Shown piece after piece: positions 4,282-25,690 of a stretch of 64,000 bases of DNA (position 1 is the stretch's first letter; each line of letters starts with the position of its first letter). This DNA is from Acidimicrobiia bacterium (GTDB taxonomy: Bacteria > Actinomycetota > Acidimicrobiia > Acidimicrobiales > AC-14). The notes below the pieces were generated by a model that saw nothing but the letters and a program-made list of their open reading frames with translations, ran no database searches and had not been told where the DNA came from. A program made the translations under genes and the position numbers. The stretch is from positions 1 to 64,000 of the forward strand of contig JAHFUR010000017.1 of assembly GCA_023264995.1 (NCBI GenBank). Reading direction: 5' to 3'.

Positions 4282-4908
4282 CTATCCCCCGGCCAACCGC
4301 TGCGCAAGCACGGCGGCTTCCTCGCCGAGCAGCGAGAGCACCAGGTCGAGCCGGTCGCCGGCTCCGTCGGTGCCCAGGAGGCGCTGGGCGTCAAGGGGCC
4401 CGAGGGGGGCTTGGCCGGCGGCCTGCCACGTGGCGACCGCCGGATCCATGCTCAGCTCCACCGCCACGCCGGCGGCCGCGTCGCCCAGCTCGGCCTTCTG
4501 GGCCAGCAGCCGGCGCAGGAGCCGAGCCAGCTCGTCACGCCGGGCGTCGGCGTCGGGCCCGATCGGGCCTTCCGGGCAGGGCACGACCTCGGCCCGGGGA
4601 TAAGGGTCCTCCGCCAGCCAGCGCCGGACCCGGACCCGGTCCTCGCCGACGAGGACCACGACCCACCGGCCGTCGTCGAGCTCGACGGAGTCGGCGATCA
4701 CCGCCCGGGTGGCGACATCGAAACGTACGTCGCCACCACCCACCTCGCTCCCCCGCTCGATCAGGACGACACCGAGCCGCCCGTCACCGTCCACGCAGTG
4801 CCGGGCCAGGGCCCGGTAGCGGGGCTCGAAGATGTGCAGGGAGAGGAGCGTCGAGGGGAACAGCACGTTTCCCAGGGGGAACATCGGTAGTTCGACTGCG
4901 GCGGTCAC
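4282..4908 (-). CDS. LON peptidase substrate-binding domain protein
   Basis: 208 residues matching the stand-alone N-terminal LON domain: ELPMFPLGNVLFPSTLLSLHIFEPRY is the classic opening, followed by RLGVVLIERGSEVGGG. No AAA+ or Ser/Lys protease part is present, so it is not Lon itself. Proteins of this type may bind substrates or act as adaptors; the role here is unknown. The GTG start overlaps the dacB stop (GTGA), so translation is probably coupled to the cell-wall gene upstream. Confidence 0.88.
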   Translation of the reverse strand: MTAAVELPMFPLGNVLFPSTLLSLHIFEPRYRALARHCVDGDGRLGVVLIERGSEVGGGDVRFDVATRAVIADSVELDDGRWVVVLVGEDRVRVRRWLAEDPYPRAEVVPCPEGPIGPDADARRDELARLLRRLLAQKAELGDAAAGVAVELSMDPAVATWQAAGQAPLGPLDAQRLLGTDGAGDRLDLVLSLLGEEAAVLAQRLAGG

Positions 4909-6302
4909 CCGGAGGTAACCGCCTTCGGGCCCAGCTCATCGGCCGAAGGGGCGCGGGGGAACGCGGCGAGCACGTTCACGACACGGTCCTGGAGGGCGGC
5001 GCCGGCCGCCGCGGTCGGGAGGTCGTTCAGGAGGAGGCTGAAGGAGACGTTGCGGTTCCCCTGGCCGGTCACGAACCCGCTGAGCCCGGCGACGCCCTCC
5101 AGGGAACCGGTCTTGGCCCAGACCCGCCCGGCGGCCGGCGTGCCGAGGAACCTGCGGAACAGGGTGCCGTTGCGCCCGGCCACGGGCAGGCCGGCGGCCA
5201 GCGCCGGCGGCGCGCCCGCCACCACCCGTTGGAGCACCGAGCAGCTGACCTTGTCGCCCCGGTCGAGGCCGGAGCCGTCGATCGCCGCCACTTCCTCGGC
5301 CGACACGCCGGCCATCTGTCGCAGGCGGTCGGCGACGACGGCCAGGCCGGCGGCCGTGGACCCTGGAACGCCGGGCCGGGTGCCCATCTCCTTGACCAGC
5401 ATCTCGGCCGCCATGTTGTCGCTGTTCTGGAGCGTCTCGGCCACGACCTCGCTCAACGGCGCCGAGTCGATCGAGGCCACCTGTGGGGCGCCGGCGGGCG
5501 CCTTGCCGGTCCCGGTGTCGCCGACGGTGACCCCCCGGGCACGCAGGAGCGTGGCCAGGACGCCGGCCGCGTGGGCCGCCGGGGAGGTGGCCACCGCCGG
5601 CGGGTTCTCGCTGGTGAACGACTTGTTCACGACCAGGGCCGACAACGGGCTGATGTCGAAATTGGCGATGTAGCGGGGGTTCCAGCTCGGGACCAACCGC
5701 TCGGTGTCGTAGCGGCTCTCGTCGCCAAGGAGGCGCCCGACCCGCCGGACACCGGCACCGACCACCTTGTCGGCCAGGGCCTCGATCGACGTCGACAGCC
5801 GGGGCTGGCCGAGGTAGCCGCCGTCGGACGCGAACTCGGCGGTGGACAGCAGCGGGTCGCCGCCGCCGACCAGGTACAGGTCGCCGACCGCCCCGTCGGC
5901 CGGCGGGGCCCCGGCCCGCACCGAGGTGGTGAACCGCGTGTCGGCCCCGAGCTGGGCGAGGGCCGCCGACGCGGTCAGGAGCTTGAAGGTCGACGCCGGG
6001 ATGAGCCCGAGCGCCGGCTGGCGGGCGTAGTGCACCGTCCCCCCACCCGGGTCGCCCACCACCAGGCACGACCGGTCGCGGGCCGGCCCGTAGACCGGGT
6101 CGGTCATGATGCGGTCGAGGTCGCTGCGGAGGTGGGTCTCGGCCACCACCCGGGAGAGCAGCGCCGGCACCCTCCGAAGACTGAACAGCGGGGTCGCCAA
6201 GGCCGGAGCGGCGCCGGCCGGCGCCGGCGCCGCCGCCCCAGCCGGCCCGGGGATGCTCGCCAGGGCGATACCAAGGGCCAGCACCCCGGCGCTGCGCCTC
6301 AC
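4905..6302 (-). CDS. dacB: D-alanyl-D-alanine carboxypeptidase/endopeptidase (PBP4/DacB type)
   Basis: A penicillin-binding protein of the S13 serine peptidase family that trims peptidoglycan cross-links outside the membrane. An N-terminal signal peptide (about 1-25, ending near AGA) is visible. The active-site serine is in PASTFK (S104, K107). The second motif is SDN (QNSDNMAAEML) and the third KTG (WAKTGSLEG). The length of 465 residues is usual. The GTG start overlaps the stop of the upstream acyl-CoA synthetase (GTGA), and its own stop overlaps the LON-domain gene, so these genes are co-translated. Confidence 0.93.
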   Translation of the reverse strand: MRRSAGVLALGIALASIPGPAGAAAPAPAGAAPALATPLFSLRRVPALLSRVVAETHLRSDLDRIMTDPVYGPARDRSCLVVGDPGGGTVHYARQPALGLIPASTFKLLTASAALAQLGADTRFTTSVRAGAPPADGAVGDLYLVGGGDPLLSTAEFASDGGYLGQPRLSTSIEALADKVVGAGVRRVGRLLGDESRYDTERLVPSWNPRYIANFDISPLSALVVNKSFTSENPPAVATSPAAHAAGVLATLLRARGVTVGDTGTGKAPAGAPQVASIDSAPLSEVVAETLQNSDNMAAEMLVKEMGTRPGVPGSTAAGLAVVADRLRQMAGVSAEEVAAIDGSGLDRGDKVSCSVLQRVVAGAPPALAAGLPVAGRNGTLFRRFLGTPAAGRVWAKTGSLEGVAGLSGFVTGQGNRNVSFSLLLNDLPTAAAGAALQDRVVNVLAAFPRAPSADELGPKAVTSG

Positions 6303-7810
6303 CGGTCGCCCCGGAGGGCCCGGCGGAGCAGCTTCCCGCTCTCGGTGCGAGGCAGCGCCGCGCAGACTTCCCAGGACCGCGGCCGCTTGAACGGGGCCAG
6401 GCGGGGCGCGAGGAAGGCATCGAGGCCGGCGGGGTCGAGCACTCGCCCCGGCCGGGGCGTGACCACGGCATGGACCCGCTCCCCCCAGGCGTCGTCGGGG
6501 ACGCCGATCACGGCGGCGTCGGCCACGTCGGGGTGGGCGTGCAGGGCGGCTTCCACCTCGGCCGGGTACACGTTGACGCCCCCGGTGATGACCACGTCGG
6601 TCTTGCGGTCACAGATGTGCAGGTAGCCCTCGGCGTCGAGCCGGCCCATGTCACCGACCGATTTCCAGCCCCCGCCGCCGGCCAGCTCGGCCATGGGCGC
6701 CACCGCGCCGTGGTAGCCGTCGATGGCCTGATCGGTGCGGACGAAGACCTCACCGACCTCGCCGGCCGGCACGTCGGCCCCGTCGGTGCCGACGATCCTG
6801 ATCCCGATCCCCCCGTAGGGCCGCCCGCAGGAACCAGGCTTGCGCAATTGGTCCTCGGGCCGGAGGACGGTCACGATCCCAAGCTCGGTGGCGCCGTAGA
6901 CCTCGTACAGGAAGCCGGCCCCGAGCCGGGCGACCACCTCCTCCTTCAGCGAGTAGGGCACGGGCGCGGCGTTCACGATGACCGTCCGCAGGCACGACAG
7001 GTCGGCCTCGGACAGCAGGTCGTCGGGCAGGGCCACGATGCGCTTCAGGTGGACGGGTGCCACGAACGCCGAGGTCACCCGGTGCCGGGCGACGAGCCTC
7101 ACCCATGCGGCGGGGTCGAAGGCCCGGGAGACGACCAGGCGGCCGCCGGTGAGGTGGGCCAGCAGGGCGAAGGCGTGCGGGCCGGCGTGGTAAAGGGGCC
7201 CGGTCACCAGATGGACCTCGTCATCCCCGAAGGCGAGCTCGGCCAGCATGGCCTGGCGCGGCGCCGGCTCCGTGCGGGGCCGGACCGCGCCCTTGGGCCG
7301 CCCGCTCGTGCCCGACGTGTAGAACATCGTCCGGCCGGCGCCGGCCGGCGTCGCCACCCCCGACGGCGTCCCGAGGGCGACGACCTCCTCCCAGGAGCGC
7401 AAGCCGGCCACCGTGCCCCCGAACACCAAGGCATGGCGCAGCCGGCGCAGGGACGGCAGCAGGCCGGCCACCGTCGCCCCGCACGCGGCATCGACGACCG
7501 CCACGACCGCTCCGCTGTCCTCGAGCACGTGGCGGGCCTCGCCGGCGGTGAGCCGGTGCGGCATGGGGACGGCGACCGCACCCACGGCGCGCAGGGCATG
7601 GATGACAACCACGACATCGGTGCTGTTCGGCCCGCTCCAGACCACCCGCTCGCCCGGCTTCACCCCGAGAGCCGCCAGGCCGCTGGCCAACCGGGCCACG
7701 CGGTCGTCCAAGCCAGCCCAGGTCAGGGCGCCGTCCCCCTCCGACACCGCCACTCCGCTCGCATCCGTCGCCGCCCGGAGCGCCTGCGGGCCCAATGCGG
7801 CGTCGAGCAT
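6299..7810 (-). CDS. Fatty-acid/acyl-CoA synthetase (AMP-dependent ligase)
   Basis: A 503-residue ANL-superfamily enzyme that activates a carboxylic acid with ATP to the acyl-adenylate and transfers it to CoA. The phosphate-binding motif is FYTSGTSGRPKGA, with EVYGATELG, SVGDMGRLD and the hinge region DRKTDVVITGGVNVYPAEVE; the near-C-terminal catalytic lysine is in TESGKLLRR. The frame stays open far upstream, but the ATG at 7810 starts the conserved fold. Its upstream region abuts the divergent ABC exporter gene (ATG 7868), so the two promoters lie in about 57 bp. First gene of the leftward operon; the substrate cannot be read from sequence. Confidence 0.88.
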   Translation of the reverse strand: MLDAALGPQALRAATDASGVAVSEGDGALTWAGLDDRVARLASGLAALGVKPGERVVWSGPNSTDVVVVIHALRAVGAVAVPMPHRLTAGEARHVLEDSGAVVAVVDAACGATVAGLLPSLRRLRHALVFGGTVAGLRSWEEVVALGTPSGVATPAGAGRTMFYTSGTSGRPKGAVRPRTEPAPRQAMLAELAFGDDEVHLVTGPLYHAGPHAFALLAHLTGGRLVVSRAFDPAAWVRLVARHRVTSAFVAPVHLKRIVALPDDLLSEADLSCLRTVIVNAAPVPYSLKEEVVARLGAGFLYEVYGATELGIVTVLRPEDQLRKPGSCGRPYGGIGIRIVGTDGADVPAGEVGEVFVRTDQAIDGYHGAVAPMAELAGGGGWKSVGDMGRLDAEGYLHICDRKTDVVITGGVNVYPAEVEAALHAHPDVADAAVIGVPDDAWGERVHAVVTPRPGRVLDPAGLDAFLAPRLAPFKRPRSWEVCAALPRTESGKLLRRALRGDR

Positions 7811-19233: not shown

Positions 19234-19952
19234 CCGGCCCGGTGACGGAGCCGGCGACCACCATCCTGGTGGTCGAGGACGAGGAGTCCTTCGTCGAGGC
19301 CCTCACCGTCGGCCTGAAGCGGGAGGGCTTCCGCGTGCGGGTCGCCCGCGATGGTGTCGAGGCGCTGGCCATGTTCGACCTGGTCCAGCCCGACCTCGTG
19401 CTGCTCGACGTGATGCTGCCCCGCATCTCCGGTATCGACGTGTGCCGGGAGATCCGCACGCGTTCGACCGTCCCGATCATCATGGTCACGGCCCGGTCAT
19501 CGGAGATCGACACGGTCGTCGGCCTAGAGGTGGGGGCCGACGATTACGTGTCCAAGCCGTACCGGCTCCGCGAGCTCGTCGCCCGAATGCGGGCCGCGCT
19601 CCGGCGAGCGCCCCGCTCAGACGAGCCGGCGCCGAGCCCGTCGACCATGGAGGTGGGCGATGTCCGCCTCGACCCCGAGCGCCACGAGGTGTTCGTCCGG
19701 GACCAGGCCGTGACCATGCCCCTGAAGGAGTTCGAGCTACTGGCGGTCCTGCTCGACAACGCCGGCCGGGTCCTGACCCGGGAGGTCCTCATCGACCGCA
19801 TCTGGGGTGCCGACTACGTGGGCGACACCAAGACGCTCGACGTCCACATCAAACGGCTGCGGGCCAAGGTGGAGCTTGACCCGTCGAAGCCCGTCAACAT
19901 CGTCACGATCCGGGGGCTGGGCTACAAGTTCGACACGCCGGCGAGAGCCTGA
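19230..19952 (+). CDS. OmpR/PhoB-family response regulator (RegX3-like)
   Basis: 240 residues. The receiver domain has the acidic pair VVEDEES, phospho-acceptor D60 in [10 protein letters not shown] and K109 in YVSKPYR. A winged-helix DNA-binding domain follows (about 140-238, [39 protein letters not shown]). The start GTG overlaps the pstB stop (GTGA); a second GTG at 19242 is also possible. It is probably the partner of the soluble kinase at 12166 and the protein that binds the PHO box. Lying at the end of the operon it controls would give positive feedback. Confidence 0.93.
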
Positions 19953-19972
19953 ACGACCACAACGCGAGCGCG

Positions 19973-19978
19973 TAGCCT
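19973..19978 (+). promoter_or_regulatory. Candidate -10 box of the hydrolase-STAND cassette
   Basis: TAGCCT lies 35 nt before the GTG at 20014. A start about 7 nt downstream would give a real leader of around 30 nt, containing the AAGGAG ribosome-binding site at 20001-20006. This differs from the leaderless neighbours. Confidence 0.4.
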
Positions 19979-20013
19979 GCCCCGAACGGGTCCCGCCTGA
20001 AAGGAGCGCGGCG

Positions 20014-21465
20014 GTGGCGGTACAGCTCAGGGACATGGTGGTCCTGCTCCCAGGGATCGGGGGCAGCGTCCTGCAGCGGCACGGCACAGATGCGTGGGCG
20101 ATCTCGGGACAGGCTTCGTGGCGGGCGCTGGCCACGCTCGGGCGGTCGATCGCCGATCTGGCCCTCGACGGCGACGACCATGAGGTCGACGACCTCGACG
20201 ACGGCGTCACGGCGACGAAGCTCATGGCGGGCACCGTCATCGTGCCGGGCCTCAAGAAGGTGAACGGGTACTCGGCCACGTCGGAATGGCTGCGCAGCAA
20301 CTTCGAAGTGGTCCAAGGTTCCATCGACGATCCCCCCGAGAAGGCGGCCAACTTCTACGAGTTCCCCTACGACTGGCGGCGCGACGTCCGTGTCGCCGCC
20401 CGGAAGCTCGAACGCCTGGTCGCCGCCCGCCTACCTCGTTGGCGCACGGCGAGAGGCGCTGACGACGCCAAGGTGGTCCTTCTGGCCCACAGCATGGGCG
20501 GGTTGGTGGCACGCCACTACGTCGAGGTCATGGGGGGCTGGGAGCACTGCCGGGCACTCGTCACCTTCGGCACTCCGCACCGGGGTTCGGTCAGCGCCCT
20601 CGAGTTCCTCGCCAACGGCTACAAGAAGGCCTTCGTCGACCTGACCGAGCTCATGCGCTCGTTCACGTCCGTCCACCAGCTACTCCCGATCTACCCGGTC
20701 CTCGACACCGGTACGTCGATGACGAGGGTCGCCGAGACCCGCGTCGATGGCGTGAACGCCGACGCCGCGGCGGAGGCCCTGGCGTTCCACCGGGCCATCG
20801 AGGCCGCCGTCGCGGAGAACCGGCGCGACCTCCGCTACCGGGACGAGTTCTCCACCCTGGTGGTGGTCGGTACCCACCAGATGCAGACGCTGCAGTCGGC
20901 TCGGATGGCGAACGGCCAGGTCACGACCGGAACTGCGCTCCCCCCCGGTGTCCCAGCGGAGATGGACGGCGGTGACGGCACCGTGCCGATGATCTCTGCC
21001 GTCCCGCTGGAGCTTTCGACCGGATGGTTCGACACGTTCGTGCCCGAGCGCCACAGCTCGATCCATCTACCGGTGGTTCTCGGCCCCCACCTGCTGGAGC
21101 GGCTGAAGAAGGCCCAGGCTCCCGGTCTGGCCCAGATCCGGGGTGATCTCGCCGCCGAGCGACCGGACCGCCGAGCGATCAGCGTCCGTGTCGACGACCT
21201 CTACCTCCCGGGCGAGCCCGTCGAGCTGGGTGCCCGGCTGATCAACTTCCCATCCGCTCCCGGGGGCGTCCGGGTAACTGTGACCCCGGTCGGCGGCGAC
21301 ACCACTCGTCGAGCCGACATGGCGCCCGTCGCCGACGACCAGTGGTCGGTGAGCCTTGAAGGGCTCCCGGCCGGGGTCTACGCGGTCGAGGTGCGGGCCC
21401 GCCAGGTTGCTTCCGGTGCAACCCTGCCGGCGCCCGTGCACGACATCTTCGAAGTGGGGGGCTGA
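20014..21465 (+). CDS. LCAT-like alpha/beta-hydrolase (putative phospholipase/acyltransferase)
   Basis: 483 residues, no signal peptide, so probably cytoplasmic. The opening VVLLPGIGGSVLQ, then FPYDWRRDV and the nucleophile elbow LAHSMGGLVARHY (S160), match the lecithin:cholesterol acyltransferase family. FGTPHRGS, GGDGTVP (D321) and ERHSSIH (H347 or H351) supply the rest of a triad. About 100 C-terminal residues form a separate beta-rich, Ig-like domain (GEPVELGARLINFP). The GTG has AAGGAG 7 nt upstream, and the next ATG follows the stop by four bases, so the two genes form an operon. The pairing suggests a membrane-lipid-directed effector controlled by the STAND partner; that role is inference. 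Confidence 0.85.
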   Translation: MAVQLRDMVVLLPGIGGSVLQRHGTDAWAISGQASWRALATLGRSIADLALDGDDHEVDDLDDGVTATKLMAGTVIVPGLKKVNGYSATSEWLRSNFEVVQGSIDDPPEKAANFYEFPYDWRRDVRVAARKLERLVAARLPRWRTARGADDAKVVLLAHSMGGLVARHYVEVMGGWEHCRALVTFGTPHRGSVSALEFLANGYKKAFVDLTELMRSFTSVHQLLPIYPVLDTGTSMTRVAETRVDGVNADAAAEALAFHRAIEAAVAENRRDLRYRDEFSTLVVVGTHQMQTLQSARMANGQVTTGTALPPGVPAEMDGGDGTVPMISAVPLELSTGWFDTFVPERHSSIHLPVVLGPHLLERLKKAQAPGLAQIRGDLAAERPDRRAISVRVDDLYLPGEPVELGARLINFPSAPGGVRVTVTPVGGDTTRRADMAPVADDQWSVSLEGLPAGVYAVEVRARQVASGATLPAPVHDIFEVGG

Positions 21466-21469
21466 TCCG

Positions 21470-24400
21470 ATGGGGTGGGAACCGTGGTCGAAGGCGGAGC
21501 CGACAAGCCTTGCCCGCTACGTCACCGCCCAGGCCGCAGCCCTGCTCACCCTGCCCGCCGATTGGCCGACGATGCCGAGGTACGAGCTGGTGCGGGAGCT
21601 GTACGGCGCCCTCCAAGCCCAAGGGATCCCGTACCTGCCCGAGCGGTACAACCCGGTCGACGAACTGCAGGACGTACGGGCTCCCGAGGAAGTGCTCCGG
21701 GCTCCTCGGGGCGGGACCTGCCTCGACCTTGCCGCCCTCTTCTGCGGTGTGTGCCTCGCCGTCGACATGGTGCCGCTGCTGATCGTCTGCCAGGGCCACG
21801 CGTACGCCGCGGTGTCGTTGCGCTGGTCCCGGCGGGCGCAGCGCGACCCGGGCCGCGGCCCCGAGCTGAACTGGTCCGACGCAACTGGGCTGGTCGACCC
21901 GTCGGCGTTGACCGAACTGGTCGGCGACGGTGACTACGTCGTCGTCGAGTGCACGGGGTTCGCTCGGTCCACCGCGCTGACGACCGCCTTCCCGGAGGGC
22001 AGGGGCAGGGTGGACGGGTACCTGTCCTTCGAGCGGGCGCAGGCCGCGGCCAAAGAGCAGCTCCAGGAGCGGGCCTGGGTGTTCGGGCTCGACATCGCGT
22101 CGCTCCAGGACCGGTGGGGCGTACGCCCCCGCGGCCCGGTCGGGCCGCGGGCCGACTACCGGAGGGAGATCGCCGAGCTGGTCGACTCCTACGCCCGGCT
22201 GTTCGTCGGACGTCGAGCCGAGATGGACACGCTCAGCGCCTTCGCCGGCCGACAGGAGCCCGGGTACCTCATCGTCGAGGCGCCCGCCTACCACGGCAAG
22301 TCGGCGCTGTCCGCCCACCTCGTCCGGGCCAGCGAGAACGGCACGTGGGGGCACCCACCGGTCCCCGACATCGTCTGCTTCTTCGTCCGGGAGAACGCGA
22401 AGCGGAACACGGCCGGCGCCTTCCTGTCGGCCGTCAACCCGCAGCTCCTCCAGTTGGTCGGGTCGCCCGAGGGTGTCGGCGGCGACTTCGAGGCCCTCCG
22501 CGGCCAGTTCCTCCGGCTCTGGGACCAGGCGGCGGGTGCGGCCCGAGCCGAGCGGCCCCTCCTCCTGCTCGTCGATGGGCTCGACGAGGCCGCCGGCCCG
22601 GACATCGCCCTGCTCCTGCCCAGCGGCCTGCGCGACTACGTCCATGTCGTCGTGTCGTGCCGCTCGGACCAGGTGCCGGTCATGGACGACTCGTGGCACC
22701 CCATGAACCGTGCCCGCCGGCTGGTGCTGGGATCGCTCACTGTGCCCGAGGTCGAGGACATGCTGGAGGCGGCAGGGGTGGACGCCGGCCTCTCCCCGGC
22801 GCTGGGCGCCCGGGTGCACCAGCTGGCAGGCGGGTCGCCGATCTTCGTCAGCTTCATCGTGGAGGATGTGGCCGAGAACGGCACCGGGGTTCTCGACACT
22901 CTGGAGCGGACACCCCCGACCGGCTTCAGTGAGTACTTCCGCCGAGAGTTCACCAGGATGGAGCGCCATGCCGAGTCGGAGACGGCATGGGATCTGATCG
23001 CCCTGCTCGTCGTGGCCCGGCCCCCCATGCAGATCCAGGACATCGCCGACGTGCTGGGAGTGCCGAAGCGTCGGGTCGTACGGGAGGGGGTGGCCCAGGT
23101 ACGGCGCTTCCTGCGAGGGACGGAACGGGTGGACCTCACCCACCTCGAGCTACGAAGGGTCGCGGGCGAGGAGATCGGGCCGGCCGACCAATCGCGGTAC
23201 CGGGAGAAGCTGCTGGCGTGGTGCATGAGATCGATGAGCAACCGATGGCCGGGTGCGACCACGCCGGACTACGTGCTCCGTTACTGCCTCGCCCACCTGG
23301 CCGAGGCCGCCGAATCGGGCCCGGAGGCCGACCGGCATCGCCGCACGGTGGAGCTGGTCGACGCCGCGCTGAGCCCGGAGTTCCAGGCCCTCTACCTCGA
23401 GCGGTTCAAGGACCTGGCCGGGCTCGGCGCCGAGCTCGACCGGGCGCTCGTCGCGTGCGCCCGCGACCAGGACGCCGCAGCTCCCATCCTCCTTGTCGAC
23501 TGCGCCCGCCGCTCCGACCGGTCGCGGCGGGAGCGGCTCGACCCTGAGCCCCTCTTCCGGTACGCGGCCGCGGGCGACCTCGACGCGGCCCGGGCGTGGC
23601 TCACCGGGTTCCCCTGCGAGGACAACTGGCGCGTCGCCGTGCTCCTCACGTGCGCCTGGTTGGCGGGGCCGGTCGTGGGTGAGCAGGGTCGGGCGCTCCT
23701 CGCCGAGTTGCGCCCGAACGTCGGCGACGACCCGACGCTCGACCGTCTCGCCCATCGGGTCGCCGCCGATCTTGAGGGTGCTCCCCTCCCGGCCCCCCAC
23801 CTGGTCGACCCCCCAACGGAGTCCGACGCTCGCGCCATCGTCGCCCGCATCGGCGGCCGGGTCGACCCCGACGGGCCGTCGACCTTCGCCGACGCTGCCC
23901 TCGGTGGGCTGCGCGACGCGGGTTGCGACCCTCTCGACCCGGGCTCCGACGAGGACGTCGGGTCTCCCGCCCCGACGAAGGGTGACGGGTTCGCGGCCGA
24001 CATCGAAGGCCCGCGGCTCGTGTCCTTCTCCGCCGCGTCACCGGATCCCGGGGACCGCCTGGTGCGGGACTTCATGCTGCTGCATGCGTCCAACCAGTAC
24101 CCGGAGTACCGACGGCGAGCGCTGTGGGGGATACTCGGGGCCGCCCTCCACCACCCCAGACAGGAGTGGCTGCGGGCGCTGCTCCCCGACCTGCTGGCGC
24201 CCGCGCTCGCCGGCACGAGCATCCACTTCGACGAAGCCGTACCACTCACGGCCTTGGCCGCGATGGGGACGGGGCCGCCCGACAGCGACCGCTTCGACCG
24301 CGCCGTCGAAACCGTGATCGCCGACGCCGACCGCCTGGGGTGGGCTCCTGGAGAGGGCGACTCGTGGGGCGCCTACAAGCGGCGGCTGGCGGCGTTGGCC

Positions 24401-25207
24401 GAGGCGGCGGCCGTGCTTCGGGGTCAGCCCGACCGGGGCGCCGAGCTTCTCATCCGGGCCCAGGGCCTGCCTTTTGGCTACGCCGGCTACCAAGCCCCGG
24501 CGTGCCTCACCCTGGCCGAGTCGTCCCTGGTGTGCGCCCCCACCGACGCCGGGCAGGCTGGCGATCTCCTGGCCCAGGCCCGCAGCGCGGCCCACAACGT
24601 GCAGGAGCGCGTCTTCTGTGCCCGGACCACGAGCCGGGTGAACGCGCTGGCGAGGTGGTGGACCTCGGGCCGCGCTGACCCGGCCGGCACAATCGCCCGG
24701 TTCGTGGCCGACCCCGGCGCCGCGGCGTTCGCCGCTGTCCACGTGGTCGGCGAGGAATACGCCGAGCGCAGCCACAGCGAGGTCAGGGCCACACTGCCTT
24801 CAGCATTCCGCCGGGCCGACTCTCTCCGCACCTTGGCCCAGCACACCTACCGTTGCCCGGTCACCGATCTCGTGCGCCTCAACGTGGGCAGCGGTTGGGC
24901 GCCCGACCAGCGGCTGGACGAGGGGACGGAAGTGGCGGTCCCCGACCCCGACATCTCGCCGCTGATGGCGGCGTACCTGAGCGCGCTCGCGCTCGTCGAC
25001 CCCGCACTCGATGTCGCCGGCCGGACCGGCTGCATCCGGCGGCTCGTGCCGCTGGCGGCACGGAACCCGACCGCCCTTGACACCGTGCTCGCCCGCCTCC
25101 TCCTGGCCTTCGGCGCGTCCGACCGAGTGGCTGTGGCCGGTCTCGCGACCTCGATCCCCTGGCAGCCGACCTCACCTCCGAAGTTCTATGTCGGCCTCGA
25201 GAGCTGA
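21470..25207 (+). CDS. Transglutaminase-like protease domain fused to STAND NTPase with helical repeat tail
   Basis: 1,245 residues. Residues about 35-200 look like a transglutaminase-fold cysteine peptidase: RGGTCLDLAALF (C84), QGHAYAAV (H110) and VVVECTGF (E160) as a possible third residue. An NTPase module follows: EAPAYHGKSALS (P-loop near 271-279, with Ala at the first Gly position), LLLLVDGLDEA (Walker B near 364-374, STAND/NACHT style), an arginine-bearing sensor-like VVSCRSD, and a winged-helix-like region (about 530-600). The remaining 600 residues are mostly Ala/Leu/Arg-rich helices with no clear motif, as in ligand-sensing repeat domains. No membrane segment is seen. It may sense an invader and activate its own protease domain or the upstream hydrolase. 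Domain calls are by eye. Confidence 0.8.
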   Translation: MGWEPWSKAEPTSLARYVTAQAAALLTLPADWPTMPRYELVRELYGALQAQGIPYLPERYNPVDELQDVRAPEEVLRAPRGGTCLDLAALFCGVCLAVDMVPLLIVCQGHAYAAVSLRWSRRAQRDPGRGPELNWSDATGLVDPSALTELVGDGDYVVVECTGFARSTALTTAFPEGRGRVDGYLSFERAQAAAKEQLQERAWVFGLDIASLQDRWGVRPRGPVGPRADYRREIAELVDSYARLFVGRRAEMDTLSAFAGRQEPGYLIVEAPAYHGKSALSAHLVRASENGTWGHPPVPDIVCFFVRENAKRNTAGAFLSAVNPQLLQLVGSPEGVGGDFEALRGQFLRLWDQAAGAARAERPLLLLVDGLDEAAGPDIALLLPSGLRDYVHVVVSCRSDQVPVMDDSWHPMNRARRLVLGSLTVPEVEDMLEAAGVDAGLSPALGARVHQLAGGSPIFVSFIVEDVAENGTGVLDTLERTPPTGFSEYFRREFTRMERHAESETAWDLIALLVVARPPMQIQDIADVLGVPKRRVVREGVAQVRRFLRGTERVDLTHLELRRVAGEEIGPADQSRYREKLLAWCMRSMSNRWPGATTPDYVLRYCLAHLAEAAESGPEADRHRRTVELVDAALSPEFQALYLERFKDLAGLGAELDRALVACARDQDAAAPILLVDCARRSDRSRRERLDPEPLFRYAAAGDLDAARAWLTGFPCEDNWRVAVLLTCAWLAGPVVGEQGRALLAELRPNVGDDPTLDRLAHRVAADLEGAPLPAPHLVDPPTESDARAIVARIGGRVDPDGPSTFADAALGGLRDAGCDPLDPGSDEDVGSPAPTKGDGFAADIEGPRLVSFSAASPDPGDRLVRDFMLLHASNQYPEYRRRALWGILGAALHHPRQEWLRALLPDLLAPALAGTSIHFDEAVPLTALAAMGTGPPDSDRFDRAVETVIADADRLGWAPGEGDSWGAYKRRLAALAEAAAVLRGQPDRGAELLIRAQGLPFGYAGYQAPACLTLAESSLVCAPTDAGQAGDLLAQARSAAHNVQERVFCARTTSRVNALARWWTSGRADPAGTIARFVADPGAAAFAAVHVVGEEYAERSHSEVRATLPSAFRRADSLRTLAQHTYRCPVTDLVRLNVGSGWAPDQRLDEGTEVAVPDPDISPLMAAYLSALALVDPALDVAGRTGCIRRLVPLAARNPTALDTVLARLLLAFGASDRVAVAGLATSIPWQPTSPPKFYVGLES

Positions 25208-25690
25208 CGGGCGGCGACCGATGTTGACCGGGGGTCGGCGGCGCCCGAGTGTTCCCCGCCTCGCCATCGTCCCGACCGCCGGCGTTCATCAGCCCGTCAT
25301 CTCCGCGGCGTAGACAAGCTCCGAAGGCCTTCGCCCGGTCCCGCCGCACCACGACAGCGGCGGACCGGGACCAAGATCCACAGCTCTGCCCGCCAATTCC
25401 CCAGGTTGCTCCCCTTCCAATGCACAGCCGGCCCGGTCCATACTCTCCTTGTCCGGGACGGAACGGAGGTTGCGCAAGCGGCCGAAGGGACAGAACGGGC
25501 AAGGCTTCACACTCACCGGTGTTCCTCCCGGGGAATATCGGGCTGGCCGGTGCCTGCCTCTGGGCGGCACAGGGTGGTCGTGTGAGGCTGCGAGGTTGGT
25601 CCCGAGAAGTTCAGCGGCTCCGGCTGCAGGGCTACTCGGGGCCGCTTCGCGTCCGGCCCAAAATCGCGTCGCCGCTACGATGACCTCCAC
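25208..25690. other. Gene-free stretch between the STAND gene and ppk1
   Basis: About 480 bp with no frame resembling a protein, no tRNA-like clover leaf and no strong hairpin next to the STAND stop. The only recognisable element is the ppk1 -10 box at its right end. An 8-bp inverted pair (GGACCGGG and CCCGGTCC, about 70 bp apart) may be chance. It is the longest non-coding gap in the window and could be the scar of the cassette insertion. Confidence 0.6.
25676..25681 (+). promoter_or_regulatory. -10 box of ppk1
   Basis: TACGAT ends 9 nt before the GTG at 25691, a near-leaderless arrangement. No PHO box is seen upstream. Confidence 0.45.

Follow-up and report, generated by a model that had tools for sequence, protein, structure and literature searches.

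The window, a 64,000-nucleotide stretch of an Acidimicrobiia bacterium contig (JAHFUR010000017.1), encodes a protein in which a cysteine-protease-like domain precedes a STAND NTPase. The earlier note had placed the motifs around C84, H110 and E160, the P-loop APAYHGKS and the Walker B sequence LLLLVDGLDEA in this gene, and all of them, with their coordinates, were found in a single 1245-aa frame (Table 1).

Table 1. Positions of the two genes, their predicted domains and motifs, and the inserted unit that contains them (window coordinates).
Feature	Position	Strand	Basis
Two-gene insertion flanked by the response-regulator gene and ppk	19946..25282	.	Congener comparison; limits approximate
LCAT/phospholipase-like alpha/beta hydrolase, 483 aa, predicted effector	20014..21465	+	LCAT PF02450; S-D-H triad
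TGL-STAND protein, 1245 aa	21470..25207	+	ATG 21470, stop 25207, uninterrupted frame
Probable transglutaminase-like (TGL) thiol-peptidase-type domain, aa 1 to ~215	21470..22114	+	Alignments (n = 6, n = 10); Pfam TGL-family matches in relatives; antiphage_ProA partial match
C84 in GGTCLDLA, codon	21719-21721	+	
H110 in GHAYAAV, codon	21797-21799	+	
E160 in VVVECTGF, codon	21947-21949	+	
STAND NTPase region, aa ~216-620	22115..23330	+	NPHP3_N, AAA_16, PADLOC STAND_TPR
P-loop A271-P-A-Y-H-G276-K277-S278	22280-22303	+	
Walker B LLLLVDGLDEA, residues 364-374	22559-22591	+	
C-terminal region, aa ~621-1245, predicted sensor	23331..25204	+	HEAT/TPR repeats at equivalent place in relatives

The TGL-STAND protein

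The N-terminal domain was compared in two alignments, one of six TGL-STAND sequences (the window protein, its ortholog in the congener G002, a paralogue on contig C65 of the same genome, and sequences from Rhizobium, Sphaerospermopsis and Streptomyces) and one of ten sequences from several architectures, among which were DUF4011-type helicases and TGL proteins that stand alone. Across the latter, C84, D86 and H110 were invariant (10/10), upholding the choice of C84 and H110 in the earlier note, and position 160 was either E or D (10/10). In the window protein, C84, H110 and E160 follow the required TGL residue order of Cys, His and acidic residue, and the pattern is above chance because it is kept across ten sequences of such diverse architecture. 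The window domain itself scored under every Pfam cut-off (Transglut_core, 15.4 bits; cut-off, 23), while the isolated domain of the C65 paralogue fell just under the cut-off for the same family (E = 2.6e-4, 21.7 bits) and another relative, L031, passed DUF553, a transglutaminase-like family (22.6 bits; cut-off, 20.5). The Pfam scores of relatives thus converge and point to one superfamily, TGL.

An AlphaFold model of residues 1-240, built from the window and congener sequences only, had a mean pLDDT of 36.5, and at that confidence its order of elements (a helix at 84-97 led by C84, and strands at 102-107, at 110-116 with H110, and at 156-160 ending in E160) does no more than agree with a TGL core. 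When the TGL alignment was compared, profile to profile, with 23 canonical transglutaminase domains, whose own alignment was noisy, nothing aligned, and a profile search of the PDB that started from the TGL alignment returned no more than a marginal match to a transglutaminase-like protein (E = 0.86). Membership of the N-terminal domain in the TGL superfamily is likely, not proven, because the conserved residues and the Pfam TGL-family matches of relatives stand against an unconfirmed fold and a window domain below cut-off; the fusion of a TGL peptidase to a STAND module, as proposed in the earlier note, gained support from the former and not from the latter. TGL-like domains were also seen at the N-terminus of large DUF4011-type helicase proteins, or in an ORF adjoining them (L055), and these domains (L025, L026, L027 and L055) retain the C and H motifs where aligned.

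The central part of the protein matched Pfam NPHP3_N at 24.9 bits, barely above the cut-off of 24.8, and AAA_16 below cut-off, whereas PADLOC STAND_TPR covered aa 191-616 (1.7e-28). With a Walker A and a Walker B motif in addition to the STAND-class profile match, the protein can be classed as a predicted STAND NTPase. The congener ortholog shares 47% identity over the full length. No repeat or other family was recognised in the C-terminal region by a Pfam search, and HEAT or TPR repeats occupy this place in the relatives L047, L051 and C65. A LysM-like look near aa 1120-1160 was dropped, as Pfam gave it no support.

The earlier note had also drawn attention to a variant P-loop. The substitution of Ala for the first Gly is genuine, G276, K277 and S278 are kept, and the Walker B sequence is as it was described, but the P-loops of the ortholog (GDAMFGKS) and of other relatives (GVGGAGKT, GEPGIGKT, GSGGAGKT) all start with Gly. 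The Ala is a private conservative change of the window protein; it was rejected as a functional hallmark and, as a private substitution, carries little weight. DnaB-type P-loops likewise start with Ala.

The upstream hydrolase gene and its protease neighbours

Overlooked in the earlier note, a second gene ends 4 bp 5' of the TGL-STAND gene and has a GTG start behind an AGGAG-like site. The product scored 42.9 bits against LCAT (PF02450; Pfam cut-off, 21) with an intact triad of S160, D321 and H347, and this combination of profile match and S-D-H triad identifies a putative LCAT-type alpha/beta hydrolase. The protein begins straight at the first strand, a signal peptide is not evident, and the C-terminal part is an all-beta (Ig-like) region. 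In a profile search of solved structures, the nearest chains were group XV phospholipase A2 (E = 2.9e-5) and 4r1d, a PADLOC search returned no match for the hydrolase, and an AlphaFold model based on the window and congener sequences only had a pLDDT of ~37. Among aligned hydrolases with a protease partner, the S-D-H triad was kept in every sequence (22/22).

For both the congener G002 and C65, the stop of the hydrolase overlaps the GTG start of the TGL-STAND gene (GTGA). Long ORFs that would fuse the lipase to the TGL-STAND protein at these two loci were rejected as an out-of-frame shadow; the genes are separate. At the G002 locus (L022), a TIR-domain gene (6271-7065, minus strand; TIR_2, 5.5e-8) has a start that overlaps the TGL-STAND stop, and is possibly a third component.

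Searches of the proteins in plasmid records and of whole genomes yielded 26 non-phage hydrolase loci, which were examined for neighbouring proteases. A protease neighbour was recognised in 24 of the 26, one of them by motif only. Six loci, in three phyla, had an adjoining TGL-STAND gene with the hydrolase directly upstream (Acidimicrobiia, including the second copy in the own genome; Streptomyces; Rhizobium; and a cyanobacterium), four had a CHAT (caspase-like) gene, including CHAT proteins that lack a STAND domain, and 13 had a caspase-like STAND gene, mostly in divergent orientation and several with WD40 repeats; the locus on contig C81 of the own genome is one of these 13. The motif-only case (L063) is a hydrolase convergent with a protein that bears caspase-clan motifs (His-Gly and Cys), and the remaining two loci (L068 and L069) had no recognised protease neighbour. 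Neighbours were assigned to the caspase and CHAT groups by Pfam CHAT matches and by blastp against N-terminal regions that carry GHG and NxC/DxC motifs; no Pfam caspase family match occurred for the caspase-like neighbours among the matches listed. The 26 loci are not independent, because many of the Streptomyces loci are closely related.

Mapped on the hydrolase tree, the labels of the three partner types needed three changes (minimum, two), with at least two changes of the TGL label forced by well-supported branches. With one hydrolase family beside all of these partner types, the lipase was retained while the type of protease was exchanged. The varied proteases, CHAT partners without a STAND domain among them, suggest that the lipase is linked to the protease and not to the STAND module. 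Because distant bacteria have this lipase family next to cysteine proteases of three kinds, the pair looks like an immune or self-destruct device, one in which a membrane-attacking enzyme would be turned on by a protease. Phage records held no hydrolase match. Viral contigs held no TGL relative, and neither of the two distant lipase-like matches in them had a recognised protease next to it.

Several loci vary in the genes that accompany these families. Within the own genome, the second hydrolase and TGL-STAND pair (C65; L023, 6667-13169) has a long TPR array in place of the window-type C-terminus and a DNA cytosine methyltransferase-like gene upstream (4428-5417, minus strand), a third hydrolase is divergent from a caspase-like-STAND-WD40 gene (contig C81; L042, 9401-14688), and a STAND relative with 34% identity in the NTPase region (contig C79; L024, 7174-11673) has another N-terminus and long C-terminal helical repeats. 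Rhizobium johnstonii (L046, 11427-14099) carries a short TGL-STAND gene (651 aa), and the next gene, of 890 aa, may encode a split-off C-terminal sensor. On Streptomyces plasmids (L053, L054, L070-L075), the hydrolase and a caspase-like STAND gene are divergent, and a RES-domain gene often comes after the latter, which suggests an additional component directed at NAD. In a hydrolase relative from Streptomyces clavuligerus (L069, 5992-7371), both the catalytic Ser (HATGG) and the catalytic His are lost.

In the window, the pair is flanked by a Pho-type response regulator gene (downstream of pst genes) on one side and by ppk on the other. The pair is absent from the congener G003 (L089), where the regulator and ppk are ~490 bp apart and the DNA (regulator 3' end and intergenic sequence) aligns to the window as far as 19945 and again from 25283 onwards. 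The same site is empty in G002, which has its ortholog on another contig. Since the G003 DNA matches on both sides, the two genes were either gained here in one joint insertion or lost together from the congeners, and they move or are lost as a pair. Across the six TGL pairs, the identities of hydrolase and TGL sequences were correlated (r = 0.95, Mantel p = 0.006), with shared descent contributing to the correlation. The genes have the make-up expected of an effector pair, a predicted effector conserved beside a protease and co-diverging with it, and very probably act jointly.

A proposed mechanism and its alternatives

In the mechanism that we infer, the C-terminal region of the TGL-STAND protein would detect a signal from a phage or another invader, and the STAND NTPase would then switch and oligomerise, activating or concentrating the TGL-type cysteine peptidase at the N-terminus. 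This enzyme would cleave and so activate the LCAT/phospholipase-like hydrolase encoded upstream, and the activated hydrolase would attack membrane lipids, with the infected cell killed or arrested as a result. A defence role for the pair is probable, and we give an even chance to the whole chain, from an invader-triggered NLR-like sensor through the fused protease and partner lipase to membrane damage. The weakest link of the chain is the direction of the protease-lipase step. By analogy, protease-activated nucleases (PMC12799240) and the association of hydrolases with caspases (PMC7159879) provide precedents. The conserved upstream lipase is more likely to be the target of the protease, and the effector, than is the protease itself, and therefore a test of self-cleavage or toxicity with the protease alone, as suggested in the earlier note, would probably offer the wrong substrate.

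A single STAND switch could instead control two effectors in parallel, with no zymogen involved, the lipase being recruited or activated by contact and the TGL domain cutting other host or phage proteins. Neither a cut site nor an insert blocking the active site was identified in the hydrolase, multi-effector STAND systems are known, and the congener operon has the extra TIR gene, all of which fit this arrangement. However, the hydrolase family accompanies varied cysteine proteases, CHAT proteins without a STAND domain included, and we consider parallel action rather unlikely. The TGL superfamily also takes in cross-linking and deamidating enzymes, which sequence is unable to separate from peptidases, and the domain might be a transglutaminase, a deamidase or a ligase-type acyl-transfer enzyme that modifies the lipase or another target; as the caspase-like and CHAT domains that accompany this lipase family elsewhere have peptidase folds, we regard this as improbable. 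Dead peptidase domains are found in related conflict systems (PMC7159879), a precedent for a TGL domain that is catalytically dead or a mere binding module with an incidental hydrolase neighbour, yet the C, H and E/D residues are retained in all aligned sequences and the pairing recurs in three phyla, making a dead domain very unlikely. A module for phosphate-stress or polyphosphate regulation instead of defence, as the position between the Pho-type regulator and ppk might suggest, was rejected as highly improbable, since two congeners have regulator and ppk adjacent at an empty site, an ortholog lies elsewhere in a congener and other loci are on plasmids, in unrelated contexts.

Activation of the lipase by the protease may also describe a wider class. 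We tentatively propose, at somewhat less than even odds, a widespread form of defence in which an LCAT-type phospholipase zymogen would be activated by an interchangeable TGL, caspase-like or CHAT protease, often carried on an NLR-like sensor.

Relation to known systems

Activation of a nuclease by protease cleavage is proven for Avs1, Hachiman and Canu, and the authors of that work expect further enzyme classes in bacterial immunity (PMC12799240). Like the Avs1, Hachiman, Lamassu, DRT and Canu pairs described there, the window locus has a protease fused to or beside a core immune protein with a separate effector gene adjoining, and in both cases one effector family occurs with different protease families and the genes travel together. 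Those pairs combine an MBL-fold nuclease with a trypsin- or caspase-like protease, whereas here a putative LCAT-type hydrolase accompanies a TGL-type domain, and cleavage activation, which is proven for the nucleases, is a step that we infer for the hydrolase and TGL-STAND pair. In the VMAP (MoxR-vWA) systems, caspase domains always have a neighbouring alpha/beta-hydrolase gene and TGL peptidases are rare (PMC7159879). The shared arrangement of peptidase and hydrolase neighbour is a likeness at the level of alpha/beta hydrolases in general, and the MoxR and vWA genes needed in VMAP are absent from the pair and its immediate flanks (response regulator and ppk).

The layout of an N-terminal effector or protease, a central STAND NTPase and a variable C-terminal sensor is common to AVAST/Avs and other bacterial STAND (NLR-like) proteins, though the window protein scored 15.2 bits against Avs1b (AVAST type 1; equivalog cut-off, 1500 bits), in which the protease is trypsin-like. 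A TGL-like stretch is shared with NCBIfam antiphage_ProA (NF058533; window aa 40-123 to profile positions 161-243, E = 3e-10), but the 1903-position profile was matched in the C/H stretch only (38.2 bits; equivalog cut-off, 1500 bits); the open-licence literature yielded no description of ProA. The hydrolase has the fold family and S-D-H catalytic residues of LCAT and group XV phospholipase A2, and differs from these secreted or lysosomal eukaryotic enzymes in having an Ig-like C-terminal region and no evident signal peptide.

STAND-protease fusions and hydrolase/caspase pairs are already published ideas, and no description of an LCAT/TGL/STAND system was found in the open-licence literature. 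The pairing of a TGL-STAND protein with a dedicated LCAT-type lipase, and the sharing of one lipase family by TGL, CHAT and caspase-like partners, appear to be new relative to that literature. The locus and its relatives are concrete candidates for the other proteolytically activated immune enzymes suggested by the 2025 nuclease-protease work. If the proposed mechanism is true, membrane-lipid attack would join protease-triggered bacterial cell death, with a lipase in the place that gasdermin has in caspase-driven pyroptosis and the nuclease has in the nuclease-protease pairs, and an NLR-like switch, a protease and an effector would be testable within a two-gene system.
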